Positions 1 to 28,085 of a stretch of 56,140 nucleotides of DNA are shown here, piece after piece (position 1 is the stretch's first letter; each line of letters begins with the position of its first letter). Below the pieces are notes generated by a model. The model was not told where the DNA came from. It saw only the letters and a list, made by a program, of their open reading frames with translations, and did not search any database. Location of the stretch: contig JACSRX010000079.1 in the NCBI GenBank assembly GCA_014879535.1, positions 1-56,140 on the forward strand, in the 5' to 3' direction. The DNA is from Chthoniobacterales bacterium. GTDB lineage: Bacteria > Verrucomicrobiota > Verrucomicrobiia > Chthoniobacterales > JACTMZ01. The translations under genes and the position numbers were made by a program.

Positions 1-1851
1 ACCGTCCTCCCCCGGCGGCGGATAGAATTCGGCCACCTTGGCGACGAATTCGTCGATGAACACCTTCATCATGGCGATGACCGCCTTGATGCGGTTGCTG
101 ATGAAGCTATACATGAACAACGCGGGGATCGCCACGAACAGCCCGAAGGTTGTCGCCAGCAGCGCACTGGCGATACCCGGTGCGATCGAGTTCACATCCA
201 CTTCGCCCGACTTGGCGATGACCGCAAACGTGATCATCACGCCGACCACGGTGCCGAGAAGGCCGACATAGGGACCACCGGCAATGCTGATGGTGAGATA
301 GGTGAGACCCTTGCCGAGTCGGTGCTGCTCGTGGACGAGCGCGGTATCCAAGGCGGCCCGGATCGCCTGGATCGAGCGGGCGCGCAACCCCTGCCCACGA
401 TACCGGTCTTGGGCCAACCTGTTGCGGATCTCCTCCGAACCGACATGGTAAACGTGGTAGAGTGGTGCACCGGTCGCCAGTTCGAGTTCCTCTTCGGACA
501 ATTCCTTGCCGAAAGTGGCGGCGGCCTTGGGCGAATCCAGATCGAGGGCGGTCAGATCGCTGGACACCTCCGCCCACAAGTTCTGGAACGCGGCGTTGCC
601 TTTCTCGATCCGGGCGAGATCGCGGAATTTCACCCCCGCGACCGACCAACCGACAATCATCATGACCACGCAGACCCCGACGGCGATCCAGCCGTCGAAC
701 ATCATGTTTTTGGCGATGTCTCCGAAGAGGGACACGTGCTCGAGCATTCCGCTGCTCTTGCCTCCGCTTCCCTCGGGATCACCGGCCTGCAAGAGCCGTC
801 CGGACAACTCGCTGCCGGCCTGAGTGAGGTAGGCGAGACGGAGGGCTGCGGACGGCAGAGCGGACCCGTAAATCTGCAACTCGTCCAACTCCCCGACAAA
901 ACGGCCCGCGCTGCCTTGGGCGGGATCGGGGCCTCCTAAAAACATGGCACCGCTACCGGCGGGCAATCCCGATTCGACGGCAGCGGCTTCCCGACCGTCC
1001 ACATACAGAACGAGGCGGTTGCCCGAAGCCGTGATGGCGACTTGACGCCAAGCACCGCCTCCAACCGCCTCCGGTGCCACGGCGCGCGGACTGCCCGTTA
1101 GCTCGACAAACGGAGCACCGCCCGCTGCCAGACCGACACGGAATCCGCCGGCATCGGGACGACTGAAAAGAACCGCCTCATTCGAGGTGTTCATCGGCTT
1201 GACCCACAGGACGAGGGTCAGTTCCCCACCCGCTTCCCACGCGTTGGCCGGGGTGCCGGGGATCTTCACCGGCTCGCGGCCGACGAGACGCAGTCCGCTG
1301 GCGATGATCGCCCCTTCCGTGACATTTCCCGCCGTTTCGGCATCGGAACCCGCGGCCGAGGAATCGCGCGGGGGCGTTCCCCGCTCGTCGAGGTGGTAAA
1401 CGAGCCGAGCGTTGTCCGGATACGTCTTCTTGGGATCGGGAGCTCCCTCGGCATCCGGCTTCGAGTTGCCGTAATACAGCCAGACATCCGTCTTGCCGGA
1501 AATCTCGGGCACACGCACCCACGCAAATCCCTCCGCCATGAGCGGGTCGAACTTTTCGAGATGAAAGGCAAGCGATGTCTTGTCATCTCCGGCAATGAAT
1601 CGGAGATCGCTGCCATCCTGGTTCACGAACTCGAACGGCAACACGCCGGGATGCAGGCGCACAAGAACGACGACCTCGCCCGGTTCGCCTTGGATTTCAG
1701 CGCCCTCGACAGTCGGGTCGATGGTCAACTTGACACGGCCGCCCCAGTCATTGTTCCACCAGGCGGAAGCATCGACGATCCCGAGAAGCAGGATGGCAAA
1801 CAGAGCAGCGAGGCCGCGCGAACGCGGCAGTTGTGTGATGAGCGACTTCAT
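1..1851 (-). CDS. DUF2341-LamG-MotA/TolQ/ExbB proton-channel protein (C terminus cut by window edge)
   Basis: The reading frame is open from the ATG at 1851 to base 1, giving 617 residues so far. After a signal peptide (MKSLITQLPRSRGLAALFA...) there is a DUF2341-type region (about residues 28-130, with the WVRVPEISGKTDVWLYYGN signature), then a LamG/concanavalin-like domain (about 145-345). A membrane segment follows near 384-404, and then a MotA/TolQ/ExbB channel domain with two more membrane helices (about 515-545 and 557-583). The family uses proton flow through an ExbB/ExbD-type stator to do work across the periplasm. The ATG overlaps the tpsB stop (ATGA), so the two are translationally coupled. 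This suggests that the channel serves the two-partner secretion machine; that role is inferred. An ExbD gene is expected just outside the left edge. Confidence 0.85.
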   Translation of the reverse strand, partial: MKSLITQLPRSRGLAALFAILLLGIVDASAWWNNDWGGRVKLTIDPTVEGAEIQGEPGEVVVLVRLHPGVLPFEFVNQDGSDLRFIAGDDKTSLAFHLEKFDPLMAEGFAWVRVPEISGKTDVWLYYGNSKPDAEGAPDPKKTYPDNARLVYHLDERGTPPRDSSAAGSDAETAGNVTEGAIIASGLRLVGREPVKIPGTPANAWEAGGELTLVLWVKPMNTSNEAVLFSRPDAGGFRVGLAAGGAPFVELTGSPRAVAPEAVGGGAWRQVAITASGNRLVLYVDGREAAAVESGLPAGSGAMFLGGPDPAQGSAGRFVGELDELQIYGSALPSAALRLAYLTQAGSELSGRLLQAGDPEGSGGKSSGMLEHVSLFGDIAKNMMFDGWIAVGVCVVMMIVGWSVAGVKFRDLARIEKGNAAFQNLWAEVSSDLTALDLDSPKAAATFGKELSEEELELATGAPLYHVYHVGSEEIRNRLAQDRYRGQGLRARSIQAIRAALDTALVHEQHRLGKGLTYLTISIAGGPYVGLLGTVVGVMITFAVIAKSGEVDVNSIAPGIASALLATTFGLFVAIPALFMYSFISNRIKAVIAMMKVFIDEFVAKVAEFYPPPGEDG

Positions 1852-3485
1852 AGTTCCCCCCAAAGTCGGAAGACCATCAGGGAGTCCCCGGCCTTGATGC
1901 TTCCCTGATCCACCTGCGGAATACCGACAACCACCGACCCGTTGAGCCAATCAAGCAGCCTGATCGTCGCCCCGAATCCGTAGCTCCAAAGCTCGAACTG
2001 CGTGGTCTGCTCGGGCAGCGGATCATTGATGTAGGCCGCCCCGGCATCGAGGAAGACGAAGGCACGCAACTCCTCGGCCGGACGCTTCGTCCAGGCCAAC
2101 AGCGATGGCGAATAAAATTCCAGACTGGCGGCCACCGCACTGTCCCCGACGACTTGCGATTCGAGATACCCGCGCACGGTGTTCAATCCGCCCACCGAAA
2201 ACTGCTCGCTGTCCACGAGCGCGTTCGGCGTGGCCTGCCCCTGCAGGACGCCTCGTGCGCGGAAATCCCACCAGAGGTCCTGCTCGTAGCTGCTGTAGCC
2301 GCGGAAATAAAAATAATTGCCGTTGGCCTCATAGCGCCGGTTGTCGAACTCGACTTCACCGCTACCCATTCCGCGGAAGTGCCAGTTGAGCGACCCGTCG
2401 AACTCGAAGCGGTAGTTCTTGCCCGCCCAGAACCCGGTGTAGCCGACCATGAACGGCCAATACGCCACCGGCGACGAGGAGATGAGTGCGTTGTCGAACG
2501 ACAGCGACTGCTCAAAATACTTGTAATCGATCCCGAACGTCACCGTGTGGTAGAGGCCCTGTTTGCCCGGCAACTCCGCGATCAGGCGCGTGCCGTAGAT
2601 CTCGCCATTTCCGGTCGAGGCCGAACCCCCGAGCGTGGACACGTCGCTGTTCTGCCGGATGGCCTGCGCCATGATCGAAAGACCGTCCCACCAAGGGAGA
2701 GGCGCGATGTAGTAACCCGAATAAACCGTGGCGTCCTCCGGCCGCTCCGGTGCCACCTGAAAAGCCAACCCGATCGTGTGCCCGAGTTGCCAGAGATTGT
2801 CGTAGCGTGCTGCCAAGTCGAACCGGAGCGGTGTTGTGTTCTCGCTGTAACGGTTGTTCAACTCCGCACTCGCGTGGAAGGGAAACACGTCCTTCACGAG
2901 CAACTCGACATCCACGGTGCCCGGCTGGGCACCCGGCTTGAACTCGGGGGTCACCTGCAAATCCGAGCGGCGGTTGAGCGCAATGAGGTCCCGCTGAACG
3001 TCGTCGATCCGCGGCAAAACGCCCTCCTGCAGCGACGGGGCGCGGCGCTTGATTTTCTCGATGTCAAAATACCGCGATCCCCTCACGGTCAGGCGCCCGA
3101 CGGGCATTTCCTGGACGACGAGCACGACCACCCCCTTGGACGGATCCTGCGGCGGAACCTCCACGACCACCGTCTGGTAACCCGCCCTCTGGTAGCGCTG
3201 CTCCAACGCGGCACGCGCCAGTTCCACATCCTCCTCCGTGCGATCGGGACCCATGTAGGCGTAAACGGCCATGTCCACCTCGTCCCGCGGAAGCTGCTTG
3301 GAGCCCACGATGCGGTATTCGCGGATGTAAAAGCGGTGCAGGGGGGAGGCTTCCTCGGGTGTCAGACTCGGCGCTGCAGACACGACTGGCCCCGCCTCCG
3401 GCGCGTCTTGGGCCCGGACAAATGCGGGGGAAAAAACGGCAGGAGTCAGAAACATTGCAAGCAATATGTTAGTTGACTTAATCAA
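1848..3485 (-). CDS. TpsB-type outer-membrane transporter (ShlB/FhaC/HecB family)
   Basis: This 545-residue protein should be the outer-membrane pore that secretes the giant TpsA encoded divergently at 4363. A signal peptide ends near the AQDAPEAG segment. A POTRA domain follows (about residues 50-125, starting RFYIREYRIVGSKQL), then a second POTRA-like stretch, then a 16-strand-type beta barrel with the family's conserved VRGY loop (VGGLNTVRGY, near residue 440). Length fits the family (about 550). The start is uncertain: a TTG at 3485, directly after an in-frame TAA, gives the best signal peptide with a basic n-region, while the first ATG lies at 3455. I see no good Shine-Dalgarno sequence before either. 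The stop overlaps the ATG of the downstream ExbB-like gene. Confidence 0.9.
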   Translation of the reverse strand: MIKSTNILLAMFLTPAVFSPAFVRAQDAPEAGPVVSAAPSLTPEEASPLHRFYIREYRIVGSKQLPRDEVDMAVYAYMGPDRTEEDVELARAALEQRYQRAGYQTVVVEVPPQDPSKGVVVLVVQEMPVGRLTVRGSRYFDIEKIKRRAPSLQEGVLPRIDDVQRDLIALNRRSDLQVTPEFKPGAQPGTVDVELLVKDVFPFHASAELNNRYSENTTPLRFDLAARYDNLWQLGHTIGLAFQVAPERPEDATVYSGYYIAPLPWWDGLSIMAQAIRQNSDVSTLGGSASTGNGEIYGTRLIAELPGKQGLYHTVTFGIDYKYFEQSLSFDNALISSSPVAYWPFMVGYTGFWAGKNYRFEFDGSLNWHFRGMGSGEVEFDNRRYEANGNYFYFRGYSSYEQDLWWDFRARGVLQGQATPNALVDSEQFSVGGLNTVRGYLESQVVGDSAVAASLEFYSPSLLAWTKRPAEELRAFVFLDAGAAYINDPLPEQTTQFELWSYGFGATIRLLDWLNGSVVVGIPQVDQGSIKAGDSLMVFRLWGEL

Positions 3486-3706: not shown

Positions 3707-4162
3707 TCAGATCCCCTCGCCGTCCAAACCACGCGTGTCCACAGTTCCATAGGGCGAAGCCTTCAGGACATCCTCCAAGGACGAGCTATCCATCATGTCA
3801 GCCACCAGATTTCTCGCCTCCCGCATCACATGGCGGAAACGGCACACGGACTCTTGGGAACACCTCTTGTAGTCTGTGACGGACACACAACTGATGGGGG
3901 CCAAGTAGCCGTCAAAATGCCGGACGATTTCCCCCATGGTGATGCGGCCCGGGTGTTTGGCCAGATAATACCCCCCTTTTTTGCCGGGCACGCTGTTCAC
4001 CCACTTGCGCTCTTTGAGATCGAGCATGATGTGCTCCAAGAACCGCTTGGGGATGTCATTGCGTCGGGCCAACTCGATGATGGGAATGGGGGCACCGCCA
4101 TAGTGCTCAGCCAGAGTAAACACCGCCCGCAGGGCGTAATCGGTGCGCATCGAAAGCTGCAT
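3707..4162 (-). CDS. Rrf2-family transcriptional regulator
   Basis: This 151-residue protein has the Rrf2 winged-helix signature: MRTDYALRAVFTLAEH at the N terminus, a recognition region IPKRFLEHIMLDLKE, and GKKGGYYLAK in the wing. Three cysteines follow in C-X8-C-X5-C spacing (in SCVSVTDYKRC and ESVCRF). That is close to the iron-sulfur ligands of IscR/NsrR (C-X5-C-X5-C or similar), so cluster sensing is plausible but not shown. I chose the ATG at 4162 because AAGGA lies 4 bases upstream; a TTG at 4198 is the longer alternative. It sits between tpsB and tpsA and next to the dyad at 4255, consistent with autoregulation and control of the secretion genes. CymR, the cysteine regulator, belongs to the same family, so a link to the sulfur operon further right cannot be excluded. 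Confidence 0.88.
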   Translation of the reverse strand: MQLSMRTDYALRAVFTLAEHYGGAPIPIIELARRNDIPKRFLEHIMLDLKERKWVNSVPGKKGGYYLAKHPGRITMGEIVRHFDGYLAPISCVSVTDYKRCSQESVCRFRHVMREARNLVADMMDSSSLEDVLKASPYGTVDTRGLDGEGI

Positions 4163-4241: not shown

Positions 4242-4269
4242 TTGACACGGCATTAATAACGACTAATTT
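4242..4269 (+). promoter_or_regulatory. Probable tpsA promoter
   Basis: TTGACA at 4242-4247 is followed after 16 bp by TAATTT at 4264-4269, giving a predicted start near 4276 and an untranslated leader of roughly 87 bases before the ATG at 4363. The -10 element lies inside the dyad at 4255-4279, so a protein bound there would block this promoter. Confidence 0.55.
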
Positions 4270-4279
4270 AATAGTTATT
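4255..4279. promoter_or_regulatory. 25-bp dyad operator candidate, site A (rrf2/tpsA divergent region)
   Basis: Left arm AATAACGAC, right arm AGTTATT, 9 of 11 outer positions symmetric. It is one of four related sites (3555, 4255, 22263, 23857) sharing ATAACGAC at the left and GT-K-ATT at the right with identical 25-bp length. Its position over the -10 of tpsA and between divergent genes is what is expected for an autoregulated repressor site. Confidence 0.65.
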
Positions 4280-4362: not shown

Positions 4363-7300
4363 ATGCGCATTCACCGCCAACAGCACGTCGTGAGGGCCGG
4401 GAGCCGCAAGTTCTGGCTGACCACGGCGTTCCTGCTGCTCGGCGGCGCATCCACCTCGTTCACGGGGGACATTCTCCGGGGTGGCGCCACTGTGGAAAAC
4501 ACCCGCGCCCGCGCGGCGGCGGTGGCAGCCAGTGGTCAGCGTGCCGCGGCGGAAAGCCGGGCACGTTTCCAGGACCGTCTCGCCAAGACCACGATGGCCG
4601 TCCAGTCGGCAAGGTCCATGCAGGCCGCGGCACGGGCCGCTGCCGGAGTGGGCAACGTGCCGGACGGACTCACGCCGGGCGGGTTGGAACGCTACGAGCC
4701 AGGCCATCCCGATTATCGCTGGGATGGAGCGGATGGTCCGACCCAATCTGGCCAGATCGTCACCATCCACCAGAAGCTGCAGCAGGCGGTGCTGAACTGG
4801 AAAACGTTCAACATCGGCCGCAACACGACATTGCACTTCGACCAGAGCGCCGGGGGCAACAAGGCCGACCAGTGGGTGGCCTTCAACACCGTGCTCGATC
4901 CTTCGGGGCGCCCCTCACAGATCCTCGGTCGCATGACCGCCCCAGGGCAAGTTTACGTCATCAACCAGAACGGCATCATTTTTGGCGGCTCCAGCCAGGT
5001 CAACACCCGGGCGCTGGTCGCCTCATCGCTCCCCATCAACGTGAACTTGGTGGAGAAAGGCCTGCTCAACAACCCCGATCTCCAATTCCTATTTTCCGCG
5101 TTGCCACTCGCCGCAGGCACCCAAGGCACGGGTGCCTTCGTCCCCTCTCCTCCGTCCAGCGGCACCATTGGCGCCGTCGTCGTCGAGGCCGGGGCGAAGA
5201 TCAGCACCCCCACCTCGGCCGACAACACCGGCGGCCGTGTCGCGCTCATCGGGCCGCGTGTCGTCAACAACGGCGAAATTTCCAGCCCGGACGGCCAGAC
5301 AATCCTCGCGGCGGGACTTCAAGTCGGATGGACCGCGAGTTCCGATCCCAGCCTTCGCGGACTCCAAATCTACATCGGCGCCGTGAGCGACCCCTTGCTC
5401 GCACCCGACGGAGGGGTCGTTGTTCAAAACGGTGTGATCAGCGCCCCGCGAGGTGCCATCACGCTCACCGGCAGGGAAATCCGCCAGTCTGGGGTGATCG
5501 AAAGCACGACCTCTGTCTCGTTGAATGGCCGCGTCGATCTCATTGCCAGCTACAATGCCATCGCCAACCCGCGCTACGATGCCGCCGTGCCGGCCACCGG
5601 CTCACCCTTCCTTTACCGGACCACCGGCTCCGTCCATCTCGAACCGGGCAGTTTCATCAGCATCCTTCCGGAATGGGACAGCGACAAAAAGCTGATCGGC
5701 AGCGCCAAGCTCGCACTTCCGAGCCGCGTCAACATCGAGGGGTTGGCTGTGCATTTCGGCGCCAACTCGGGACTGCTGGCCCCGTCCGGTGAAGTCAACA
5801 TCAGCGTCGGCAATTGGTCCTATCTGAATTCACCCGCCCAATCGCAATTCCTCCGCGATGCCGGGCAGGTTTACGTGGACAACGGTGCTTTTATCGACGT
5901 ATCAGGCTCCCGCGATGTCGTCGTTCCCATGTCGCAGAATTTTCTTTCCATCCAACTGCGCGGGGCGGAGCTCGCAAACTCCCCCGTGCAGCGCGGTGGC
6001 ATCCTTCGCGGCGCAACCCTCATCGTGGACCTCCGGCGCAAGGGCACCTACTTCGGCCGGGAATGGGTTGGGACCCCGCTGGCGGACCTCACCGGATACA
6101 CCGGCCTGATCGAGCGCAGCATCGGCGAACTCACCCTCGACGGCGGCAACATCGATATCCAGGCAGGCGGCTCTGTGGTCATCCAGAGCGGAGCCTCCCT
6201 CGATGTCTCCGGCGGCTGGCGAAACGTGCAGGGCGGCAACGTCCGGACCACGCGGCTCTTGTCCGGAAACCAGATTGTCGACATCGGCAGCGCCACGCCG
6301 GATCGCGTTTACACGGGCATCTATGACGGACGGACCACCGTGATCCACACGAAATGGGGCGTCTCCAAGACCTACCGCAATCCGTTTGCCGCCGACGTCT
6401 CGCGCTACGAACCCGGCTACATCGACGGTGCCGGAGGTGGCAGCCTCTCCATCACCGCACCGGCGATGGCTTTGGACGGCAGCCTGTTCGGCCAGACGGT
6501 GACCGGCCCGCGCCAGCTGCGGTCCGCCACGACGGACAGTTCACTGCCGCAGGTCTCCTCGCTCGCGCTGCTCCTGCAGGCACAGCGAGGCGCAGCGCCG
6601 AACATCATCCCATCGTATCCCGATTTGGTGCAGATCGTCTTTGGCAACGGATCATCGGCAGGCCACGTCGCGCCTTTCGCCCTCGACGCCTCCGGCCATC
6701 CCGGAGAGCTTGACGAGGAGCGGCGCAAACGCATCAACCTCTCGACTGATCTCCTTGCCGGCACCGGCTTCGGTTCTCTCACCATCCAGAACGAAGGCGG
6801 CTCCATGGATCTTCCGCGGGGAGTCAACTTGAACGCACCAACGGGAGGGGCGATCTCCCTCACGGCGGGCAACATCACAATCAGCGGTTCGATCTTCGCG
6901 CCCGGGGGCACCCTCGCCTTCAAGGCCTACAACATCACGCCGGAGCAGGCCGCATTGGCCGCCGCCGCCCCGGTGCCGGTGGTGCCCGCGCCGAATCCCG
7001 GCATGGGGATTTTCCGGCTCGCATCCGGAGCCGTCCTCTCCACCGCCGGCCTTGTCGAGGACGACCGCCCCACCTCAACCCGCGCGGCGCCTCGTCCGTT
7101 CAGTCCCAACGGCGGCTCCATCAGCATCAATGCCTACACGGCCAATCTCGCCCCGGGCAGCCTGATCGACGTCTCCGGAGGCTTCAACATGAGCATCCAC
7201 GCCACGCGCCGCTACGGCAACGGCGGCTCCATCAGCATTCTCGCAGGACAGGACCCCGGTCTCCCGTCAGTGCTCGGCGGTAAGCTTTCACTCGGCTCCT

Positions 7301-10300
7301 CGCTGAGCGGATTCGCCGGCGGCCTTGGCGGCTCCCTCGCAATTCAGGCTCCGCTCATCCAGATCGGAGGCAAGGCGCTCAGCACCAATTCGCTCATGCT
7401 GTCGCCCGATTTCTTCTCGCGCGGCGGATTCGCCAGCTTCCATCTCACCGGACTCGGCGAGGCAACCTCGACCCCCGGAAAATTCCTCCCCGGCGTTTAC
7501 ATCGCCCCGGGCACGCGGATCGAGCCTGTGGTCGCGGGACTGTCACACACGCCGCACACACCGGGCGGACTCGGGTTGACCATGCGCGTCGTGGACAAAC
7601 CCATCGGGATCCGCTCGCCCATGCATCTGGCCTTCTCCGCTCCGGGCGTGAAGGACGCATTTTCCGGCGGACTGCTTGTGCGCGGCCACGTCGTGATGGG
7701 CCAAGGCGCCGTGATCAAGACTGATCCGCTCGGTGGGGTCTCCCTCAATGGAAACACCGTGACCATGCTGGGCTCGATTTTCGCGCCCGCCGGAACCATC
7801 TCCCTCTCCGGCGCCACGGATTCGAAATCCTTGTTTGCGGACCAGAATCAGGCTCTCGCCACGGTTTACATCGGACCCGGGAGCATCCTCTCCGCCGCGG
7901 GCACCACGCTCATGCTGCCGGATCCCTACGGCCGCCGCACGGGACTCGTGCTTCCCGGCGGGACAATCTCCCTGCGCGGCAACATCATCGCCGCCGCGGG
8001 CTCCGTGCTCGATGTCTCGGGTGCCTCCGGTGTCTTCGACGTGCACCCGATGGTGGCGCGTCCGTTCGGAAGCGTGGCGGTGCCGGCCAACAGCGGACTC
8101 ACCGCGCCGCCCTTCGCCCTCCGCACGATTCCCATGCGTCTCGACAGCGGCGGCGGCCTCATTTCGTTGCAAGGCGGACAGCTGCTCTTCTCGGAGGCAA
8201 CCTTGCTGGGCCGCGGCGGTGGCCCGGGCGCCACGGGCGGCTCGCTCATCGTGTCCTCCGGTCGCTTTTATCCCGAGGGGGCGTCACCGCTGCCGAACGA
8301 CATCAATCTCATCGTGAAACAGAGTGGCTCCGTCCTCGCCGAGCCGCCACCGGGCGTCGGCTATGGCGTCGGACTTCCGGCGGTTCCCGCGGCGGGATTT
8401 TCCAATGCCGGGACGGGATACTTCGTCGCCGATGTTTTTGGAGCGGGCGGATTCGATGCGCTCGCGCTCCGGGGCAACGTGCAGTTCCTCGGACCTGTCA
8501 GCATCACTGCCGGATCCGCCATTTCCGTGGCTGACGGCGGCGTGCTCTGGGCTGACAGCGACGTTCGCTTGACCGCACCCTATGTGGCGCTGGGCATGGC
8601 ATTCCAACCACCGGTCGCACCGGAGGACCGCACAAGTCCGTTCCTGCTGGGAAGCGCCCCGTTCAACTTCGCGCCGACCTACGGTCCCGGACGGCTCTAT
8701 GTGACGGCCCGCAATATCGATGTTGGCACGCTCTCTCTGCAGAACATCGGTGGCGCTTCCCTCTCGGCGGATCGTGACCTGCGTGGAAGCGGGTTCTTCA
8801 ACATCGCGGGCACCCTCGACCTGCGAGCCGGGCAAGTTTATCCGGTGACGGCCTCCGAATTCACCATCGTCGCCTACGACTACACGCTCGGGGGCACGAA
8901 CCGCAGCGGCACCATCAACATCACGGGGACATCCACCCAACCGCTGCCGCTCTCGGCCGGCGGCACGTTGAGCGTCTATGCTTCTGTCATCAACCAAGGC
9001 GGTGTTCTCCGTGCGCCGTTCGGCACGATCAACTTTGGCTGGGACGGCACGGGAGCCAAGCCTGTGGATCTCCTTGCCGGCAACGCCGTCGCCTTCCCCG
9101 TGACCGGTGAACTCAACCTCGCACCGGGCAGCGTCACCTCCGTCTCCGCCATCGATCCCATCACCGGCAAAGGCATCACGATCCCCTACGGCGTGAGTCC
9201 GGACGGAACCTCGTGGATCGACCCGCGCGGCGTGGACATCACTTCGGGAGGACTCCCCGAGAAGACCATCCGGGTCGCCGCACAAAATCTCTCGGTGGCC
9301 GAAGGTGCCACGATCGACATCCGCGGGGGCGGCGAATTGCTCGCCTACCGCTGGGAGCAGGGCAATGGCGGCACCGTGGACATCCTGTCTTCAACCACGA
9401 CCTTCGCCGTCCTTCCGGGAGTGCAAGCCGACATCGCCCCCTTTGCCCCGTTCGCCCTCTCGCTCAACGCGGCCGACGGTCCCGGCTACGCCAACAGCTC
9501 TCTCGGCTTGGGCGACCGCGTTTATCTCGCGGGCAGCAAGACGCTGGCCGCCGGATATTACACGCTGCTCCCCGCACGCTACGCCCTGCTGCCCGGCGCC
9601 GTGCTCGTGACTCCGCTGAACCAGACCGCGCCCGCCGGCAGCTACGAGACGGCCGAGGGCGCCAGCATTGTCTCGGGCTACCGCTTCAACGGTCTCAACT
9701 CCTCGCGCACGATCTCGACCATCTCGGAACATTTCGAGGTCGCCTCCGCGGATGTCGTCAACAACCGGGCCAAATACGAGGTGATCACCGCCAGCTCCTT
9801 CCTCGCGCGCGCCGCGTCGGAGCTGAACATCGACGCGCAGCGGCTTCCCCGTGATTCCGGCTATCTTCTCCTGCAGGCGGCAAATACCATGACCCTGCTC
9901 GGCGATGTCATTGCGCAGCCCGCCGGACGCGGACGCGGCGGGGCGATGGACATCAGTTCTCCGCGCGACATCGTCATCAACACCGGCGGGACACCCGTGG
10001 CCGGGGCCATCGCCCTCAGTTCCGAGAAGCTCTCGGGCTTCGAGGTCGAAAGCCTCCTCGTCGGCGGACGCAGAATCCGCGGGACAAACGGCACGTCCGT
10101 CGAGGTGCTCTCGGGCAAGGTGACCCTTGACAATGCAGGCTCCGCACTCTCCGCCCGCGACGTGGTGCTGACAGCAAAAACAGAACTCACCCTCGCAGCT
10201 GGATCTTCCATCTCATCCTCTGGCCCCCTCAGCGGCGCGGCGGAAACGCTCCTTTTCACGGCTGACGGCACCGCACTCCGCGTCTCCGGCGACGAGGATG

Positions 10301-13300
10301 CCGCCATCCTCCGCACGGGCACCACGGCTTCCACGGCGCCCAAGCTCACCATCAACGCAGGGACCTCGCTCTCCGGTGCCGCGCTGCTGATCGACTCGTC
10401 GGCAGGAATGACCATCAACCCGAATACATCGCTCGACGCCGTCGCCTACTCGATCAGCAGCGGCAGGATCAGCCTGCAGCTCGACAACCCCGGCTTGCCA
10501 GTCGCGGACGGACTCATCCTCGGGGGATCACTCCTGCAGAAACTCGGTTCCGCCCACAAGCTGTCGCTCGCGGGCTATTCGTCCATCGACATCTACGGCA
10601 CGGGCACTTTCGGGGGCTCCGAGTTGTCCATACTCGCCCTCAACGCCCCCGAAATCCGCGGCTTCAACACCTCGGGCGGCGAGGCCCGCTTCGTGGCGGA
10701 TGAAATCCTCCTCGGCAATTCCTCGGGCGGCAGCGGACCCGCTGGCGGCGTCGGCACTTCCGGCACGCTCGCATTCGAGGGCAGAACGATCCGCCTCGGC
10801 GCCAACCAACTCGGGGTCGAAGGCTACCAGCTCGTCCGCTTGGGGGCATCCGGAACCGTCATCGGCGAAGGTAGCGGGGCGTTCAATGTCCAGGAATCCC
10901 TCGCCATCAGGACGCCGCTGTTGACCGGCGCATCCGGCGCGGATCGCGCCATCAATGCGGGCGGGGCGTTCACCGTTGAGGGGACGGGGGCACAGGCCGA
11001 CATCACCCGGGCGGGCCTCGGATCCACCCTGGCCTTGAGCGGGGCATCCCTTGACCTAGGAGGACTCGTCCTGCTGCCAAGCGGCCTGCTTTCCGCGAAG
11101 ACCACCGCGGGTGATCTCGTGGTCAATGGACTCCTTGATGTCGGAGGCACCCGCCAGGAATTCTATGACCTGATCCGGTTCGCCGACGGCGGCATCATCG
11201 AGCTGCAATCCCTCGCGGGCGACGTGAACATCAATGCAGGCGCCGCTCTCAGCATCGCCTCGCATCAGGCAGGCGGCGCTGCGGGCACGTTGATCATACG
11301 TTCGCCCCAAGGCGCATTCCTTTCGGCGGGCACCCTGCTCGGTTCCGGAAACAGCCGCCAAGGCTCGTTCGCACTCGACACCGCGGCACTTCCCTCCTAC
11401 GCCGCCCTCGGCGCACAGCTCACGGCAGGCTCCTTCACCGAAAGCCAGGAGTTCCGCATCCGCACCGGCGATGTCGCGCTGGACGGAACAGCACGCGCCC
11501 TCACCTTCCGTCTCTCGGCCGACGGCGGCTCGGTCCTCGTCACCGGCCTCATCGACGCGTCCGGAAAACAGGGCGGTGAAATCTCCCTCGCCGCACACGG
11601 CGACATGATCCTAGGCGGCGGTGCGGTGCTCGATGCCTCGGGCGAGGACTTCAGCAATGCCGGCAAGGGCGGTCTGGTGCAGCTCGAAGCCGGCGCGCAA
11701 ACCGGAGGCATCGTCGGCCCCGGCTCGGTGCAGATCCTCTCTGGATCGACCATTGACCTCTCGGTCGGCTCAAAAATCGAAGGCGATGCATTCACTCCCG
11801 GCACCAGCGCTTACTTCGGACGCTTCTCCGGCAAGCTGCACATCCGCGCCCCCCAGATTGCCGGTTCCACCGACCTCGCCGTCGCCCCGATTGGCGGTGA
11901 CGTGGTGGGGGCCTCCAGCATCCTTGTCGAGGGTTACCGCCTCTACGACCTGACCTCCACCGGCGGCCTCATCACCGGATGGAGAACCTCGCTTGGAGCA
12001 CTGCCTGCAGCCGGAACGGTCCAACGCCGAGTTTACGACGACGCCACTGCCTACCTCTCGGCGGCCAACCATGACGCGATGCTTCTGCGCCTGCTTGGCA
12101 GCGATCCCCAGAATTTGCACAACCTTCTGGTGCTCGCACCCGGCGTTGAGATCATCAACCTCACGGGCAACCTTCGGATCGGCTCCGACTCAGCCTCCTC
12201 GACCGCTCTCGGCAGCGCGTCGCAAACCTCGGCGGATTGGAACTTCGCGGACTTCCGCTTCGGCCCGAACCAGGCCCCCGGCGTCCTCACCCTGCGGGCA
12301 GCCGGCAACATCGAGGTGCTCAACGCGCTCAGCGATGGATTCCGTCCCGACACGCCCTTCGACGCCTCCACACCTGCCGGCCAGCAACTCTGGCTCAGCG
12401 CGCTCATGGCACCCAATCTCAGCCTCCCGCTCAACAACCAGTCTTGGTCGTTCCGACTCTCGGCCGGCGCGGATCTTGGGGCAGCGGACTTCCGCAGCGT
12501 CCGCCCATTGGCTGGCCTTGCTGCGGGCAGTGGCTCGTTGCTGCTCGGCAAGTTCTATCCGCAAATCCTCCTCAGCGGCACCGCGGCGGGTGCCAACGCC
12601 ACCACCGCTGCCGCCATCAACAACCGTTATCAGGTCATCCGCACCGGCACAGGCGATATCACCATCAAGGCGGCCCGCGATGTGCAGCTGCGCAACCAGT
12701 TCGCCAGCATCTACACTGCAGGCGTGCGCGTTCCCAACCCCACTCTCGGGGGCACCTTCGATGTCCCGCTCATCAGGCCGCCGCAGCAGCAAGTTCTCGC
12801 CCTCGGTGCCATCCAGCAGAGTTATGCGGCCTATTTCAGCATGGCTGGCGGCGACCTGAGCATCCGGGCTCAGGAGAACATCCGCCGCGTCACGCAGATT
12901 TCGGGACAGATCGTGGACGACTCCGTGCGGCAACTGCCATCCAACTGGCTCTACCGTCGGGGCTACGTGGACCCGGAAACCGGCGAATTCGGCCGTGCCC
13001 GCAACGCGGACACCGGCGACTTCGCATCGACAGCATGGTGGGTGGACTTCAGCAACTTCTTCTTCGATATCGGCGCGCTCGGTGGCGGCAACGTCACACT
13101 CGAAGCGGGGCAGGACATCCGCAACGTCAACGCCGCCCTCCCCACCAACGGCCGCATGTCCAAAGGCGAACCGGATTCCGGGAAACTCGTGGAGCTCGGC
13201 GGCGGCGATCTCATCGTCCGTGCCGGACGCGACATCGATGCAGGCATTTACTACGTGCAACGCGGCACGGGCATTCTTTCGGCGGGCCGCGACATCATCA

Positions 13301-15621
13301 CCAACCCCACACGCTCCCCGTCGCTCGGTGCTCTGACTGGATCTGCCGCGCTCGCATCGGAGACATGGTTGCCCACGACATTGTTCCTCGGCCAGGGAGG
13401 TTTCGACATCAGCGCCCGTGGAAACATCCTTCTCGGCCCGGTAGCCAACGCTCACCTTCTGCCCGCGGGCTATAACAACACCATCTGGTATAAGACCTAC
13501 TTCTCGACCTACTCGCCAGAAAGCTACGTCAACATTGCGTCGCTTGGGGGCTCGGTCACCCTGCGCACGTCCGCATCCCTGCCGGCCAGCGGCAACAGCC
13601 TCGAACCGACACCCCTGCTGCTGGCTTGGGCGGAACGCCAATTGCTCGGGTTCTCGCAAAACACGCGCTCCTCATTCTACCAGCCCTGGCTGCGCCTTGC
13701 TGAGCGCGCCACCGATCCGTTCCGCACGGTTCTGTCCGTGATGCCGCCCATCCTCAAGGCCATCGCCTATGCCGGGGACATCAATCTCGTCGGCGACATC
13801 ACCCTGGCCCCCTCACCATTGGGAACCGCCGAGCTGGTCGCTGCCGGCGCCATCAACGGCCTGCAGCCCGACGGTGTGATCACGATGCAGGGCACCGGCT
13901 CCACGAAGGCGTGGGCCACCTCGAGCATCAACATCTCCGACGCCAATCCGGCTTCGATCCCCGGGGTGTCGAGCCCGTTCGGCTACCAGACCATCGCCGG
14001 GATCTCCGCGGGGCAAGCGGTCAACACCCAAAGCGAGTTCCTGAAATTCATCGACAATCTATTCCTCGAATCCGGCGCCACGCTGGGCACCGCACTGCAG
14101 ACCAAACTCGCGCTGCACGGCCCGGGCCCATTGCATGCAGCCGACCAAGCGCCCGTGCGACTCTACGCACGCACGGGCGACATTTCGGGACTGTCCCTGT
14201 TCTCGCCGAAATACACCCGCATCTTCGCGGGCCGCGACATCTCGGACATCGCCTTCTACCTGCAGAACGTCCGCGAGGACGACATCAGCATGGTGTCCGC
14301 GGGCAGAAACATCCTCGCCTACAATGCCGGCAGCATCCTGCGCATCGCCGCCACATCGGCCGGCAACATTCCGTTGGCAGCGCGCGGTCCTCTCGCGGGC
14401 GACATCCAGATCGGCGGGCCCGGCAGCCTGCAGGTGCTCGCCGGACGGAAACTCGACCTCGGCACCGGGGCGGACAATGGAAACGGCACCGGCACAGGTA
14501 TCACCAGCATCGGCAACGCCCGCAATCCCTACCTGCCCTTCGGCGGCGCCAGCCTTTTTGTCGGCGCCGGCCTGGGCTCGGCGCCCGGACTCGGCGGCAG
14601 CGACCTCGACTTCGACAACTTCATCAATCTCTACGTCAAGGGCCCCTACGGTGCCGGCTGGCTCTCCGAACTTTCCGCTCAGACCGGCGGCAGGGATTTC
14701 GACGACCTGACGCCCGACCAGCAGAAGCAGATCGCCCTCCAGGTGTTCTACCTCGCGCTGCGCGATGCCGGCCGCCTCGGAAGTTACGAGGACGGCTTCG
14801 CCGCCATCGCCACCCTCTTCTCCGGCGGCCCTTACCGAGGCGACATCCTCACGCGAGGACGCGACATCCGCACCAAGAGCGGCGGTGACATCACCATCTT
14901 CGCACCCGGCGGCGGACTGCAACTTGCCAGCAGCATCATCGGCAATCCGTCCACCCCGCCCGGCATCATCACCGAGACCGGCGGCAACATTTCCATCTTC
15001 ACCGACGGAGACATCGGCATCGGCGTGGGCCGCAGCTTCACACTGCGCGGCGGCAACCAGATCCTCTGGTCCTCCTCCGGCGACATCGCCGCCGGTTCCT
15101 CCGCCAAGACGGTGCAAAGCGCCCCGCCCACCCGCGTGATCATCGACCCGACCAGCGCCACCGTGCAGACCGACCTTGCCGGCTTGGCCACGGGTGGCGG
15201 CATCGGTGTCCTCGCCACCGTGGCAGGCATCGAGCCCGGCGACGTCGATCTCATCGCCCCCACGGGAACGGTCGATGCCGGTGACGCCGGCATCCGCGTC
15301 TCGGGCAACCTCAGCATCGCCGCCGACCAGGTGCTCAATGCGGACAACATCCAAGTGGCCGGCGGCTCCGCCGGCGTTCCCACCACCGCCCCGGTGGCCG
15401 CATCCGTCGCGCCGAGCGTCGCCCCGAGTTCCGCCACCAGCGCCACATCAAGCGCCGCGCAGCAACTCGTCCAGCAATCCGCACCGGCCGGCCGTGACGG
15501 CGTCGAGGAAGCGCCCTCCATCATCACCGTCGAGGTCCTCGGCTACGGCGGCGGTGAAGGCGGTTCCAGTCGGGAGGAAGACGAGGACAAACCGCGCGAC
15601 AACCGCCAAGCCGCGCTCTGA
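4363..15621 (+). CDS. Giant TpsA exoprotein (filamentous haemagglutinin family, DUF3739)
   Basis: This is a 3,752-residue secreted protein. The ATG at 4363 gives a long signal peptide (MRIHRQQHVVRAG, then a hydrophobic FWLTTAFLLLGGA core); an upstream in-frame TTG at 4309 would only add a proline- and arginine-rich leader. The two-partner secretion domain covers about residues 100-330, with typical motifs QAVLNWKTFNIG, GRPSQILGRMTAPGQVYVIN and NGIIFG. It is followed by thousands of residues of glycine/serine-rich beta-helix repeats of the type SLSITAPAMALDGS and VDVSGG. A DUF3739-like segment (LTPDQQKQIALQVFYLALRDAG) lies near residues 3410-3490. The C terminus is an alanine/serine-rich linker plus a charged tail. 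It is probably exported by the TpsB at 1848 and may act as a surface adhesin or matrix fibre; that role is inferred. Expression is probably set by the dyad over its promoter. Confidence 0.93.
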   Translation: MRIHRQQHVVRAGSRKFWLTTAFLLLGGASTSFTGDILRGGATVENTRARAAAVAASGQRAAAESRARFQDRLAKTTMAVQSARSMQAAARAAAGVGNVPDGLTPGGLERYEPGHPDYRWDGADGPTQSGQIVTIHQKLQQAVLNWKTFNIGRNTTLHFDQSAGGNKADQWVAFNTVLDPSGRPSQILGRMTAPGQVYVINQNGIIFGGSSQVNTRALVASSLPINVNLVEKGLLNNPDLQFLFSALPLAAGTQGTGAFVPSPPSSGTIGAVVVEAGAKISTPTSADNTGGRVALIGPRVVNNGEISSPDGQTILAAGLQVGWTASSDPSLRGLQIYIGAVSDPLLAPDGGVVVQNGVISAPRGAITLTGREIRQSGVIESTTSVSLNGRVDLIASYNAIANPRYDAAVPATGSPFLYRTTGSVHLEPGSFISILPEWDSDKKLIGSAKLALPSRVNIEGLAVHFGANSGLLAPSGEVNISVGNWSYLNSPAQSQFLRDAGQVYVDNGAFIDVSGSRDVVVPMSQNFLSIQLRGAELANSPVQRGGILRGATLIVDLRRKGTYFGREWVGTPLADLTGYTGLIERSIGELTLDGGNIDIQAGGSVVIQSGASLDVSGGWRNVQGGNVRTTRLLSGNQIVDIGSATPDRVYTGIYDGRTTVIHTKWGVSKTYRNPFAADVSRYEPGYIDGAGGGSLSITAPAMALDGSLFGQTVTGPRQLRSATTDSSLPQVSSLALLLQAQRGAAPNIIPSYPDLVQIVFGNGSSAGHVAPFALDASGHPGELDEERRKRINLSTDLLAGTGFGSLTIQNEGGSMDLPRGVNLNAPTGGAISLTAGNITISGSIFAPGGTLAFKAYNITPEQAALAAAAPVPVVPAPNPGMGIFRLASGAVLSTAGLVEDDRPTSTRAAPRPFSPNGGSISINAYTANLAPGSLIDVSGGFNMSIHATRRYGNGGSISILAGQDPGLPSVLGGKLSLGSSLSGFAGGLGGSLAIQAPLIQIGGKALSTNSLMLSPDFFSRGGFASFHLTGLGEATSTPGKFLPGVYIAPGTRIEPVVAGLSHTPHTPGGLGLTMRVVDKPIGIRSPMHLAFSAPGVKDAFSGGLLVRGHVVMGQGAVIKTDPLGGVSLNGNTVTMLGSIFAPAGTISLSGATDSKSLFADQNQALATVYIGPGSILSAAGTTLMLPDPYGRRTGLVLPGGTISLRGNIIAAAGSVLDVSGASGVFDVHPMVARPFGSVAVPANSGLTAPPFALRTIPMRLDSGGGLISLQGGQLLFSEATLLGRGGGPGATGGSLIVSSGRFYPEGASPLPNDINLIVKQSGSVLAEPPPGVGYGVGLPAVPAAGFSNAGTGYFVADVFGAGGFDALALRGNVQFLGPVSITAGSAISVADGGVLWADSDVRLTAPYVALGMAFQPPVAPEDRTSPFLLGSAPFNFAPTYGPGRLYVTARNIDVGTLSLQNIGGASLSADRDLRGSGFFNIAGTLDLRAGQVYPVTASEFTIVAYDYTLGGTNRSGTINITGTSTQPLPLSAGGTLSVYASVINQGGVLRAPFGTINFGWDGTGAKPVDLLAGNAVAFPVTGELNLAPGSVTSVSAIDPITGKGITIPYGVSPDGTSWIDPRGVDITSGGLPEKTIRVAAQNLSVAEGATIDIRGGGELLAYRWEQGNGGTVDILSSTTTFAVLPGVQADIAPFAPFALSLNAADGPGYANSSLGLGDRVYLAGSKTLAAGYYTLLPARYALLPGAVLVTPLNQTAPAGSYETAEGASIVSGYRFNGLNSSRTISTISEHFEVASADVVNNRAKYEVITASSFLARAASELNIDAQRLPRDSGYLLLQAANTMTLLGDVIAQPAGRGRGGAMDISSPRDIVINTGGTPVAGAIALSSEKLSGFEVESLLVGGRRIRGTNGTSVEVLSGKVTLDNAGSALSARDVVLTAKTELTLAAGSSISSSGPLSGAAETLLFTADGTALRVSGDEDAAILRTGTTASTAPKLTINAGTSLSGAALLIDSSAGMTINPNTSLDAVAYSISSGRISLQLDNPGLPVADGLILGGSLLQKLGSAHKLSLAGYSSIDIYGTGTFGGSELSILALNAPEIRGFNTSGGEARFVADEILLGNSSGGSGPAGGVGTSGTLAFEGRTIRLGANQLGVEGYQLVRLGASGTVIGEGSGAFNVQESLAIRTPLLTGASGADRAINAGGAFTVEGTGAQADITRAGLGSTLALSGASLDLGGLVLLPSGLLSAKTTAGDLVVNGLLDVGGTRQEFYDLIRFADGGIIELQSLAGDVNINAGAALSIASHQAGGAAGTLIIRSPQGAFLSAGTLLGSGNSRQGSFALDTAALPSYAALGAQLTAGSFTESQEFRIRTGDVALDGTARALTFRLSADGGSVLVTGLIDASGKQGGEISLAAHGDMILGGGAVLDASGEDFSNAGKGGLVQLEAGAQTGGIVGPGSVQILSGSTIDLSVGSKIEGDAFTPGTSAYFGRFSGKLHIRAPQIAGSTDLAVAPIGGDVVGASSILVEGYRLYDLTSTGGLITGWRTSLGALPAAGTVQRRVYDDATAYLSAANHDAMLLRLLGSDPQNLHNLLVLAPGVEIINLTGNLRIGSDSASSTALGSASQTSADWNFADFRFGPNQAPGVLTLRAAGNIEVLNALSDGFRPDTPFDASTPAGQQLWLSALMAPNLSLPLNNQSWSFRLSAGADLGAADFRSVRPLAGLAAGSGSLLLGKFYPQILLSGTAAGANATTAAAINNRYQVIRTGTGDITIKAARDVQLRNQFASIYTAGVRVPNPTLGGTFDVPLIRPPQQQVLALGAIQQSYAAYFSMAGGDLSIRAQENIRRVTQISGQIVDDSVRQLPSNWLYRRGYVDPETGEFGRARNADTGDFASTAWWVDFSNFFFDIGALGGGNVTLEAGQDIRNVNAALPTNGRMSKGEPDSGKLVELGGGDLIVRAGRDIDAGIYYVQRGTGILSAGRDIITNPTRSPSLGALTGSAALASETWLPTTLFLGQGGFDISARGNILLGPVANAHLLPAGYNNTIWYKTYFSTYSPESYVNIASLGGSVTLRTSASLPASGNSLEPTPLLLAWAERQLLGFSQNTRSSFYQPWLRLAERATDPFRTVLSVMPPILKAIAYAGDINLVGDITLAPSPLGTAELVAAGAINGLQPDGVITMQGTGSTKAWATSSINISDANPASIPGVSSPFGYQTIAGISAGQAVNTQSEFLKFIDNLFLESGATLGTALQTKLALHGPGPLHAADQAPVRLYARTGDISGLSLFSPKYTRIFAGRDISDIAFYLQNVREDDISMVSAGRNILAYNAGSILRIAATSAGNIPLAARGPLAGDIQIGGPGSLQVLAGRKLDLGTGADNGNGTGTGITSIGNARNPYLPFGGASLFVGAGLGSAPGLGGSDLDFDNFINLYVKGPYGAGWLSELSAQTGGRDFDDLTPDQQKQIALQVFYLALRDAGRLGSYEDGFAAIATLFSGGPYRGDILTRGRDIRTKSGGDITIFAPGGGLQLASSIIGNPSTPPGIITETGGNISIFTDGDIGIGVGRSFTLRGGNQILWSSSGDIAAGSSAKTVQSAPPTRVIIDPTSATVQTDLAGLATGGGIGVLATVAGIEPGDVDLIAPTGTVDAGDAGIRVSGNLSIAADQVLNADNIQVAGGSAGVPTTAPVAASVAPSVAPSSATSATSSAAQQLVQQSAPAGRDGVEEAPSIITVEVLGYGGGEGGSSREEDEDKPRDNRQAAL

Positions 15622-19981: not shown

Positions 19982-21292
19982 TCAGTCCTTCGGCACGACG
20001 AGACCGCCGTCGGTGAAGCGCTGAACCTTGAAGGTTGAGTCATCGAAGAGGCCGCCACCGGCAATGGCGTCGACATTCTTGATCTGATCGCGCAACGCGT
20101 CGGCGAAGGTCAGCTTCAAACCCGTCAAGCCTGAGAGCGGCTTGAGGATGCGGTTGTAAAGCCACGCCGTGTATTTGCCGTTGCGGACATTGTCGTCTGT
20201 CAGTTCGACACCGTTGTATTTGAGGGCCTTCCCGCGATTGGCCTCAGGGACCACGCCGCCGACCACTCGGGTGTTGGCGTCGCCGGGTGTGAGGTAGCCG
20301 ATGTAGTAGCCCGCTGTGGCCGCCGGATACAGGTAGTCCACCTCTTCGTCCTCGACGAACTTGCCCCTGTAGGCGTCCGGTCCCAGCGTCACGGTGAGGA
20401 TCGGTGCAAGGTTCGCGCCGGAATTGTAGCCACCGCTGCCCAAGCCGCTGAAAATGCCGCTCACGGTCTCCGCAGGCCAGAGCACATGGCTGTTGGCCGT
20501 GCCTCCGTAGGTGACACCGCTGGAGGTCGTCTGACCCGTGATCGCAGGCTGCCACACCCGCACCGGCGTGCTCGTGCCCAGCCCTATTTCGGTGTAGGCG
20601 CCGAAACGCTGGCCGGCATCGGTGTTGCGCCCGATGGCATAGACGACCTTGTTCACGTCGCTGGCGAAATTTCCTGTGAACAACGCCACAGGAAGGCTGC
20701 CCGTGGTGTAGAGCAGTTGGGCCAGTTGGGTGGTGATGTTGTCCCCGGGAAAGCCGGGGCTCGCATAGAAGCCGAGCGGCGAGACGCCGACAATCTCCTC
20801 AATGATCGGGCTGTAAGTCACTCCCTCGAACTCGCCGAGGAATGGCGACGTGGTCTGGAAGTTGGTCGAGAACCCGAAGTCGGCCTTTGCCACCTCGTAG
20901 TCCGCCGGATCCGTGGCAGTCAGAGGATTCGGCACCGCTCCCGTTCCCGTGCCATCCGTGGCCACGAACCGTTGGTCGGTGTTGCCGGCCACTGCCGCGA
21001 CGCCCGCCAAAGCCCCCGAAAAGGAGACCTTGATGACGACGGATTGCCCCGCGTAGGTGCCCTTCCATGCACCGAAGTTGGCGCCGGTGGCGATATTCAG
21101 GGCTCCCGAGGACGAGGTGTTGCCATTGATGCCGCGAAACACCCAGCCGGGGGCCAGAAGTTTCGAGATGGCAGTCTGGGTCGCCGTCCGGTCGCCGTTC
21201 GATGCGACGATGCGTATGACGGTCTGGGCTTGGGTGAGGCTGGCCGTAGCCAGCAGCAGCAGGCCCGCCGCAAGGATTTTCAGTGTTTTCAT
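19982..21292 (-). CDS. Exported protein of unknown function, possibly PstS-like
   Basis: This 436-residue protein uses the ATG at 21292; the longer frame back to 21400 only adds a basic, low-complexity leader that overlaps the upstream gene. The signal peptide is MKTLKILAAGLLLLATAS with cleavage near TQAQ. The mature start (TVIRIVASNGDRTATQTAISKLL) and the later Gly/Ser-rich turns vaguely recall phosphate-binding proteins, but I cannot assign the family with certainty. It lies 68 bp downstream of the PEP-CTERM gene and is followed by a terminator, so the two probably share a transcript that starts at the dyad promoter near 22270. Confidence 0.72.
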   Translation of the reverse strand: MKTLKILAAGLLLLATASLTQAQTVIRIVASNGDRTATQTAISKLLAPGWVFRGINGNTSSSGALNIATGANFGAWKGTYAGQSVVIKVSFSGALAGVAAVAGNTDQRFVATDGTGTGAVPNPLTATDPADYEVAKADFGFSTNFQTTSPFLGEFEGVTYSPIIEEIVGVSPLGFYASPGFPGDNITTQLAQLLYTTGSLPVALFTGNFASDVNKVVYAIGRNTDAGQRFGAYTEIGLGTSTPVRVWQPAITGQTTSSGVTYGGTANSHVLWPAETVSGIFSGLGSGGYNSGANLAPILTVTLGPDAYRGKFVEDEEVDYLYPAATAGYYIGYLTPGDANTRVVGGVVPEANRGKALKYNGVELTDDNVRNGKYTAWLYNRILKPLSGLTGLKLTFADALRDQIKNVDAIAGGGLFDDSTFKVQRFTDGGLVVPKD

Positions 21293-21360: not shown

Positions 21361-22167
21361 TCATGGGGTGCTTTGCCGCCGCCGGCCAGCCAGTCTCCAA
21401 GCAAGGAAGGAGACGATACCGAATCCGATCAGGACATAGGTGGATGGCTCCGGCACGGCCGTGAAGGACAAGGCCGCGGAATCATCAATGGTGAAATACC
21501 CGGCATAGGTGACGCCCGTGCTGCCGATGCGGTAGAGATCGAGGGCGGTTCCGGCGGTTCCGTTGTCGAAGCTCCCCTCGATGCTTGACCACTGGCTGAG
21601 CGTGCCGAAATCCGTCGTGCCCGGCGTGGCGACCTGCTTGTTGTAGCTGGAAGCTTCCGTGGAACTCGGTTGGAACGTGGCCACGGCGCTGTTGGTCGTG
21701 GACTCGCGGCTGCGGATGCCACCGATGCCCTCCCAGACAGCGGAGATATTCGCCCCCGTGTTGTCCCGGGCCGGCGCCCCCAGACTCGGCCAAGGTGTGC
21801 TCTGCTCGGTCAGGGAAATGCGTTCCCTTGAGGCAAACACCGTGGTCACGACGGCCCCGGAGCGCCCGAAAACGCCCCAATAGAGATCGTCTCGGGTGAT
21901 CCAGTCACTGCCGAATTTGTCCGACAGGTCGGCGCCGATGTTTCCCAAGCCGCTCAGGAGCAGCGTTTCGCCGGGGGTGATTCCCGCCAAAACGGAATAT
22001 TGGCCGAGATTGACGAGGTAGGATTCTCCGGCCCCCTGCCCTCCGGACACACGGAATCCGAGGAACAAGTCTCCCGGCGCGGGGTCCGGCACAACGGCTG
22101 CCGATGCATGGTGGACGGCGCCCAGTAGGAGCGCCGCAAGGTATCTGATGATGGTATGAGTTTTCAC
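21361..22167 (-). CDS. PEP-CTERM sorted secreted protein (paralogue of the next gene)
   Basis: About 268 residues from a GTG at 22167, which gives a clean signal peptide (KTHTIIRYLAALLLGAVHHASA); a TTG at 22245 is the alternative. The mature domain starts GDLFLGFRVSGGQGAGESYLVNLGQ and matches the N-terminal half of the protein at 22358-23806 over nearly its whole length. The C terminus is a PEP-CTERM signal: VPEPSTYVLIGFG, a hydrophobic helix, then RLAGRRRQ. The family is exported, cleaved by an exosortase and released or anchored at the surface. No exosortase gene is in this window. The upstream dyad at 22263 covers a TATAAA element. Confidence 0.85.
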   Translation of the reverse strand: MKTHTIIRYLAALLLGAVHHASAAVVPDPAPGDLFLGFRVSGGQGAGESYLVNLGQYSVLAGITPGETLLLSGLGNIGADLSDKFGSDWITRDDLYWGVFGRSGAVVTTVFASRERISLTEQSTPWPSLGAPARDNTGANISAVWEGIGGIRSRESTTNSAVATFQPSSTEASSYNKQVATPGTTDFGTLSQWSSIEGSFDNGTAGTALDLYRIGSTGVTYAGYFTIDDSAALSFTAVPEPSTYVLIGFGIVSFLAWRLAGRRRQSTP

Positions 22168-24689: not shown

Positions 24690-24691
24690 GG

Positions 24692-27052: not shown

Positions 27053-27054
27053 GT

Positions 27055-28041: not shown

Positions 28042-28085
28042 GATGCTGTTTGGGATGTTCGGTGGTTGCTGTCGCCGCAGGAAAC

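Follow-up and report, generated by a model that had tools for sequence, protein, structure and literature searches.

The closest described relatives of the regulator considered here are Rrf2 proteins. CymR, the repressor of cysteine metabolism in Bacillus and Staphylococcus, has the Rrf2 fold and acts on sulfur and cysteine genes; in B. subtilis it senses cysteine with CysK (PMC2940859) and binds no cluster (PMC9338935). NsrR, IscR, RirA and RsrR share the fold, and in ScNsrR the ligands of the iron-sulfur cluster are Cys93, Cys99, Cys105 and Asp8 (PMC9338935). On the side of the targets, two-partner secretion is switched by limitation for a nutrient anion, phosphate, in PdtA/PdtB of Pseudomonas aeruginosa, through PhoBR and a sigma/anti-sigma system, and in HxuCBA of Haemophilus influenzae the exoprotein is coupled to Ton-dependent uptake of heme, with HxuC as TonB-dependent receptor and induction by iron limitation through Fur (PMC5422565).

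We analysed a stretch of 56,140 nucleotides from a Chthoniobacterales bacterium (the window, contig C50 of a 3.17-Mb genome), in which an rrf2 gene lies next to two-partner secretion genes. Compared with CymR, the window Rrf2 protein has three invariant cysteines and Asp8, and its predicted targets include tps and secreted-protein genes; cysK, the gene of the CymR partner, is present in the window contig. Compared with NsrR, IscR, RirA and RsrR, it shares the three-cysteine pattern and Asp8 seen in ScNsrR, whereas its cysteines are spaced C-x8-C-x5-C and its predicted targets belong to sulfur assimilation. The 25-bp dyad discussed below is similar in size to the 23-bp site of NsrR and the 11-3-11 site of RsrR (PMC9338935, PMC5015018). 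Unlike PdtA/PdtB, the window system would answer to an Rrf2 sulfur regulator and have Ton and ABC transporter genes in its operon; unlike HxuCBA, it combines exbB-exbD-tonB with a porin-like protein, with no receptor identified. In the open-access literature, we found neither an Rrf2 sulfur regulon in Verrucomicrobiota or Planctomycetota nor a two-partner secretion system tied to such an operon. The Rrf2 family itself is known, and what appears to be new is a regulon with a new subfamily, operator and targets. Our main reading, to which we assign a probability of about 0.8, is that the dyads serve as operators for the Rrf2 product of the 3707-4162 gene, a CymR-like regulator of sulfur assimilation that would most likely repress when sulfur is plentiful.

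Four dyads in the window

The regulator, the candidate operators and the tps and secreted-protein genes are arranged as follows.

1..1851, minus strand: exbB with DUF2341 and laminin-G domains (PF01618, PF13385, PF10102; synteny)
1848..3485, minus strand: tpsB, POTRA/ShlB outer-membrane transporter (PF08479, PF03865)
3555-3579, unstranded: candidate operator dyad GATAACGACTTAAACAGGCGTGATT, 70 bp before the TTG start of tpsB, after rrf2
3707..4162, minus strand: rrf2, PF02082 regulator with Cys92/Cys101/Cys107 and Asp8; start MQLSMR
4255-4279, unstranded: candidate operator dyad AATAACGACTAATTTAATAGTTATT, between divergent rrf2 and tpsA
4363..15621, plus strand: tpsA, giant two-partner-secretion exoprotein with filamentous haemagglutinin N-terminal domain (TIGR01901); no cysteine
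19982..21292, minus strand: secreted protein of a distant PstS-like family (family profile against PstS 4exl, E=7e-8; synteny)
21361..22167, minus strand: P0004, PEP-CTERM secreted protein (PF07589); no cysteine, no internal methionine
22263-22287, unstranded: candidate operator dyad AATAACGCTTTATATGGTCGTTATT, upstream of P0004
22358..23806, minus strand: P0003, paralogue of P0004 (67% over the shared domain); different C-terminus, no PEP-CTERM
23857-23881, unstranded: candidate operator dyad AATCACGTCTTATTAAGTCGTTATT, 50 bp upstream of P0003

The first-pass annotation had noticed the four 25-bp sites at 3555, 4255, 22263 and 23857, and all of them are present at these positions. As it had described, the two arms of each site, read on the better strand, carry ATAACGAC and GTKATT, the 3555 site and the reverse complement of the 23857 site agree at 21 of 25 bases, and all four sites are intergenic. 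Nor did the many random matches that it had named as a risk materialize: with zero or one mismatch, the pattern AATMACGn11CGTKATT occurs at exactly these four sites in the whole 3.17-Mb genome, the 3555 site being the weakest of the four with one mismatch. Allowing two mismatches added 14 background-like matches (8 in all for the reversed-pattern control), those on contigs C67 and C93 having low matrix scores. The order-wide consensus AATAACGACYn5RGTCGTTATT, at up to three mismatches, also returned exactly these four sites from the organism's own genome, and none when reversed. With a scoring matrix built from the rrf2 loci of named genomes, the window's family left out, the four dyads are the top four scores of the 56-kb window (34.3 bits at 4255, 31.9 at 23857, 29.0 at 22263 and 19.7 at 3555), against a maximum of 15.9 bits in 200 Markov-simulated windows. 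A weak dyad at 46087-46111, TTTAACGATTCGTAAACTTGTCATT, scores 14.1 bits, below the null maximum, and has a sugar-transporter-like gene on one side and a divergent GntR-like regulator on the other.

The earlier proposal that sites overlap -10 elements is plausible by eye, with a TTGACA at 4242, upstream of the tpsA site; it is left at that strength because a strict sigma-70 consensus scan at the sites found no promoter.

Inverted repeats such as these might instead be RNA hairpins, intrinsic terminators or a small dispersed repeat, which we find hard to credit. Similar AAACGACYn5RGTCGTTT strings with T tails do occur in unrelated genomes of the order, and the 22263 site folds well (z -3.4), but for two of the sites folding does not exceed that of shuffled sequences (z -0.8 and -1.3), and for another it does so only weakly (z -2.1). 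Moreover, the 4255 site lies between divergent genes, the base identity of CGAC/GTCG is conserved and not its pairing alone, and the genome holds just four copies. The terminator reading was rejected: one family does have such strings, with GC stems and T tails, but the window sites behave differently. The terminator-like strings recur in G071-G073 and other members of the order, in genomes that lack the rrf2 orthologue.

The regulator and its sites in related genomes

The 3707-4162 product belongs to the Rrf2 family (PF02082, 117.1 bits against a cut-off of 30; TIGR00738, 113 against 73.3). CymR is the best named equivalog by score, at 70.6 against an NCBIfam cut-off of 195, and the cluster-sensor equivalogs give 62.2 against 207 (IscR), 54.4 against 182 (NsrR) and 49.2 against 193 (RirA). 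Among solved structures, the profile matches comprise NsrR, IscR and RsrR, with CymR (2y75) second best. The three spaced cysteines reported in the first reading are Cys92, Cys101 and Cys107; they form a Cys92-x8-Cys101-x5-Cys107 series at the end of the dimer helix that is invariant in 31 orthologues, and Asp8 is invariant in orthologues as well. The window Rrf2 protein is likely to represent a subfamily of its own, CymR-like in its targets and with probable Fe-S-ligand residues.

Within the order, about 33 genomes carry an rrf2 orthologue at 65% identity or more. Two of the same genus (G001 and G005, 72-76% identity) have one dyad each, a counterpart of the 4255 dyad upstream of the divergent rrf2. 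The gene across from rrf2 is not tpsA in these genomes but encodes an AstE/AspA-type deacylase, so that the site follows the regulator although the neighbour changes. In many genomes of the order, the dyad lies directly downstream of rrf2, ahead of the next gene, and the operon that follows there encodes a sulfate-binding protein, astE, cysT, cysW and cysA.

Scanning for the order-wide consensus, at up to three mismatches and with the reversed pattern as control, gave 57 sites in 21 of the 33 orthologue-bearing genomes (control, 12), 16 of them near rrf2 and 41 elsewhere, and a single site in the 37 same-order genomes without the orthologue (control, 7). This co-occurrence is not fully independent, as the consensus came from the surroundings of rrf2, a concern addressed by the reversed control and by the 41 sites lying elsewhere. 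The remaining 12 of the 33 genomes had no site at this threshold, indicating that sites diverge or get lost. A scan of named genomes retrieved 80 rrf2 loci, from Chthoniobacterales and Limisphaerales/subdivision 3 as well as from a few Planctomycetota and others; 47 of the 80 have a site at up to four mismatches within the 500-bp flanks of rrf2, whereas 46 shuffled half-sites averaged 0.07 and never exceeded 2. In typical subdivision 3 genomes, rrf2 is followed by one site at about 48 bp and a second at about 150 bp, with sulfate genes beyond them. Orthologues in Chthoniobacterales, Limisphaerales and some Planctomycetota usually have the dyad, AATAACGACTnnnnnAGTCGTTATT, beside them. An inverted repeat of about 23-27 bp, conserved along with the regulator, has the form of an Rrf2 operator. 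With site presence tracking the orthologue, the first-pass view of the dyads as operators gains support, and the local Rrf2 protein very probably binds the four dyads.

It is very unlikely, in our judgement, that another regulator such as a paralogous Rrf2 binds the dyads and that their nearness to this rrf2 is incidental. A second Rrf2 gene does lie beside a dyad and a DUF3034-metY operon in G085 and G087, and contig C94 of the window genome encodes a paralogue with 41% identity. However, no dyad lies near the C94 paralogue, genomes with only 39-44%-identical paralogues have no dyads, and the dyads track this orthologue across orders and into another phylum. The first two of these results led us to reject a paralogous Rrf2 as the binder.

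Genes associated with the dyads

In Chthoniobacterales, Limisphaerales and some Planctomycetota, the orthologues of the window rrf2 lie mostly beside sulfate or cysteine genes, with sulfur genes within 5 kb in most of the Chthoniobacterales loci and, among the last 52 loci of the list, in 43. Away from rrf2, sites precede SulP and cysK-sbp (L166, L167, L186), the DUF3034-metY operon (L151, L162, L177, L187), a cysJ-like reductase (L158), the cysN region (L159, L164, L179, L180, L182), an APS-kinase fusion (cysC; L185), an OprB porin with DUF2292 (L148, L155, L161), carbonic anhydrase (L154, L157) and an AstE-like deacylase (L169, L184), the gene families being profile-confirmed for examples only. 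In relatives, operator and gene context thus point to control of cysteine and sulfur genes of the CymR type and, judged on these grounds, the dyad regulon across Verrucomicrobiota is a sulfur-assimilation regulon. A regulon defined from sequence in Verrucomicrobiota, and apparently in some Planctomycetota, yields a regulator, a 25-bp operator and a list of targets that can be tested directly.

Two further arrangements were seen among these loci. A second Rrf2 paralogue (L151:2675-3112, L162:1983-2423) and the DUF3034-metY operon point away from each other on either side of a dyad, and this paralogue may share the operator. In three related genomes (L153, L160, L163), a cyanophycinase-like gene is separated by dyads from an autotransporter-like surface protein.

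The window has a group of sulfur genes of its own.

24692..25855, minus strand: cysE-like serine O-acetyltransferase (NF041874, TIGR01172)
26045..27208, minus strand: sulfate ABC transporter substrate-binding protein (TIGR00971, 437 bits)
27055..28161, minus strand: cysK, cysteine synthase A (TIGR01139, 452 bits)
28086..29105, minus strand: second sulfate ABC transporter substrate-binding protein (NF008022, 493 bits); no cysteine, no internal methionine
29130..30542, minus strand: OprB-family porin (PF04966); a relative carries a dyad in G085-G087

The matrix scan found no strong dyad directly before these oprB-sbp-cysK-sbp-cysE genes. Looking elsewhere in the organism's genome, we found no further site at cysTWA (C68), at metY (C66) or on a second contig with an ABC transporter (C54). 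Sulfur control in this organism therefore rests on the relatives and on the tpsB-cysTWA operon proposed below. A cysteine-synthase-like gene broken over several frames (23955-24816, minus strand) lies beside the 23857 site, separate from the intact cysK at 27058-28161.

The pairing of a TpsA secretion domain (TIGR01901) with a POTRA/ShlB-type TpsB (PF08479, PF03865) identifies a two-partner secretion system. Dyads accompany orthologues of tpsA, tpsB and the secreted pair in three other families. In G084, from another family, dyads lie between divergent tpsB and tpsA (48% identical), and the homologue of the secreted pair that follows tpsA has its own dyad 56 bp upstream; the P0003 homologues of G084 and G085 have dyads 56-64 bp upstream. 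G085 carries two dyads between divergent tpsB and a secreted homologue, and G207 one between tpsA and a secreted homologue. In G058, one dyad precedes tpsB and further ones stand ahead of a second secreted homologue; the secreted homologue of G056 likewise has dyads in front of it. G057 has tps and secreted genes with no site in the stretch examined. Same-genus genomes G006-G010 have tpsB and neither the rrf2 orthologue nor the sites. The co-occurrence that the first-pass annotation had proposed to look for, among orthologues of rrf2, tpsA/tpsB and the secreted pair, is thus found across relatives, and on this comparison tpsA, tpsB and the secreted pair are conserved members of the predicted regulon. 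That annotation had described both secreted proteins as PEP-CTERM proteins, which is borne out for P0004 (PF07589) and not for P0003, in which no such signal is found.

In the window, exbB is the next gene of the tpsB operon and runs off the contig, C50 ending inside it. In G058, G084, G006, G007 and G009, tpsB is followed by exbB (DUF2341/laminin-G/MotA-ExbB), exbD, tonB, a porin-like gene, a coiled-coil protein and ppiC. Contig C68 of the window genome begins inside tonB and continues with porin, coiled coil, ppiC, astE, cysT, cysW and cysA. Joining C50 to C68, tpsB probably heads one operon that lies behind the 3555 dyad and ends in the sulfate transporter CysTWA; what is missing between the contigs would then be exbD together with the proline-rich portion of tonB. 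This proposed operon is invoked because cysTWA on C68 has no dyad of its own.

Predicted response to sulfur supply

The link between site and regulator, the sulfur content of the relatives' regulon and the conserved sites at tps and secreted genes are the parts of our main reading that the sequences support; from there we infer that the protein physically binds the sites, that it represses and does not activate, what its chemical signal is, and that the tpsB operon continues over the gap between the contigs. When sulfur is plentiful, as cysteine or as an Fe-S cluster made from it, an Rrf2 dimer would occupy the 25-bp dyads over or next to the promoters and repress transcription. When sulfur runs short, the protein would leave the DNA, and rrf2, tpsA, the tpsB-exbB(-exbD-tonB-porin-ppiC-astE-cysTWA) operon and both secreted proteins would be switched on. 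Repression in sulfur sufficiency is expected from the ScNsrR-like residues and the comparison with CymR, and the signal could enter through the cluster or through a CymR-like partner.

The first-pass annotation had proposed an iron-sulfur or redox signal. Because the regulon across Verrucomicrobiota is one of sulfur assimilation, sulfur or cysteine supply is the most likely signal; a cluster may still be the sensor, given the invariant Cys92, Cys101, Cys107 and Asp8. Iron or redox could even be the primary input, in that CymR works without a cluster and the window Rrf2 keeps three cysteines. The protein would then be primarily a sensor of NO, O2 or iron, with the sulfur genes as one output of cluster status, a reading that we hold to be unlikely. 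The match of Cys92-x8-Cys101-x5-Cys107 and Asp8 to the ScNsrR ligands (PMC9338935) and the profile matches to NsrR, IscR and RsrR structures speak for it; yet the sites and neighbours are sulfate and cysteine genes, the loci examined contain no suf/isc or NO-detoxification target, and the scores fall far below the IscR, NsrR and RirA cut-offs.

Alternatively, Rrf2 might mainly activate from these sites, and TpsA and the secreted proteins would be made in sulfur sufficiency, as for Serratia shlBA. Rrf2 proteins are able to act both ways (PMC5015018), and Serratia hemolysin transcription drops in sulfate starvation, though via flagellar control (PMC6687942). We judge this quite improbable, as the sites lie about 50-95 bp upstream of the starts, where promoters are expected, the co-targets are sulfate uptake genes, needed in starvation, and the target proteins are sulfur-poor. 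Neither cysteine nor any methionine besides the initial one occurs in P0004, in the PstS-like protein or in one of the sulfate-binding proteins. P0003 contains a single cysteine, and TpsA has no cysteine and 29 methionines in 3753 residues. Homologues not under a dyad contain 3-6 methionines. In this small sample of few proteins, the low cysteine and methionine content fits production in sulfur shortage. TpsA-type beta-helices are cysteine-poor in any case.

Returning to repression under sulfur plenty, the predicted control of sulfate uptake and cysteine synthesis by this regulator across relatives suggests that the cell makes the giant surface protein and its exported companions as a means of coping with a lack of sulfur. 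This gives a handle on when and why giant two-partner-secretion and PEP-CTERM proteins are made, probably when sulfur is short, sister species having a phosphate version. In G006, G007, G008 and G010, pstSCAB (phosphate) lies directly before tpsB, and this phosphate version of the tpsB-exbB operon belongs to same-genus genomes without this Rrf2. A tentative reading, to which we give somewhat less than even odds, is that the Tps proteins, ExbB-ExbD-TonB, the porin-like protein, PpiC, the PstS-like and PEP-CTERM proteins and the ABC transporter make up a single system that spans the envelope and takes up a nutrient anion or esters of it, in interchangeable phosphate and sulfate versions. The sulfate version would be that of the window organism, whose tpsB operon has the predicted sulfur-Rrf2 operator and would lead into astE-cysTWA. 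If so, the giant adhesin would be a nutrient-capturing surface protein, comparable to HxuA for heme, and not a simple adhesin, and nutrient capture becomes a predicted function for proteins otherwise labelled adhesins.

The secreted PstS-like protein at 19982-21292 is a conserved neighbour of the secreted pair. At L222, L223, L224 and L325, all same-genus loci without this Rrf2, pstSCAB stands ahead of tpsB-exbB-exbD-tonB. The fusion of exbB to DUF2341/laminin-G inside the tpsB operon brings a Ton system together with two-partner secretion, which is unusual.
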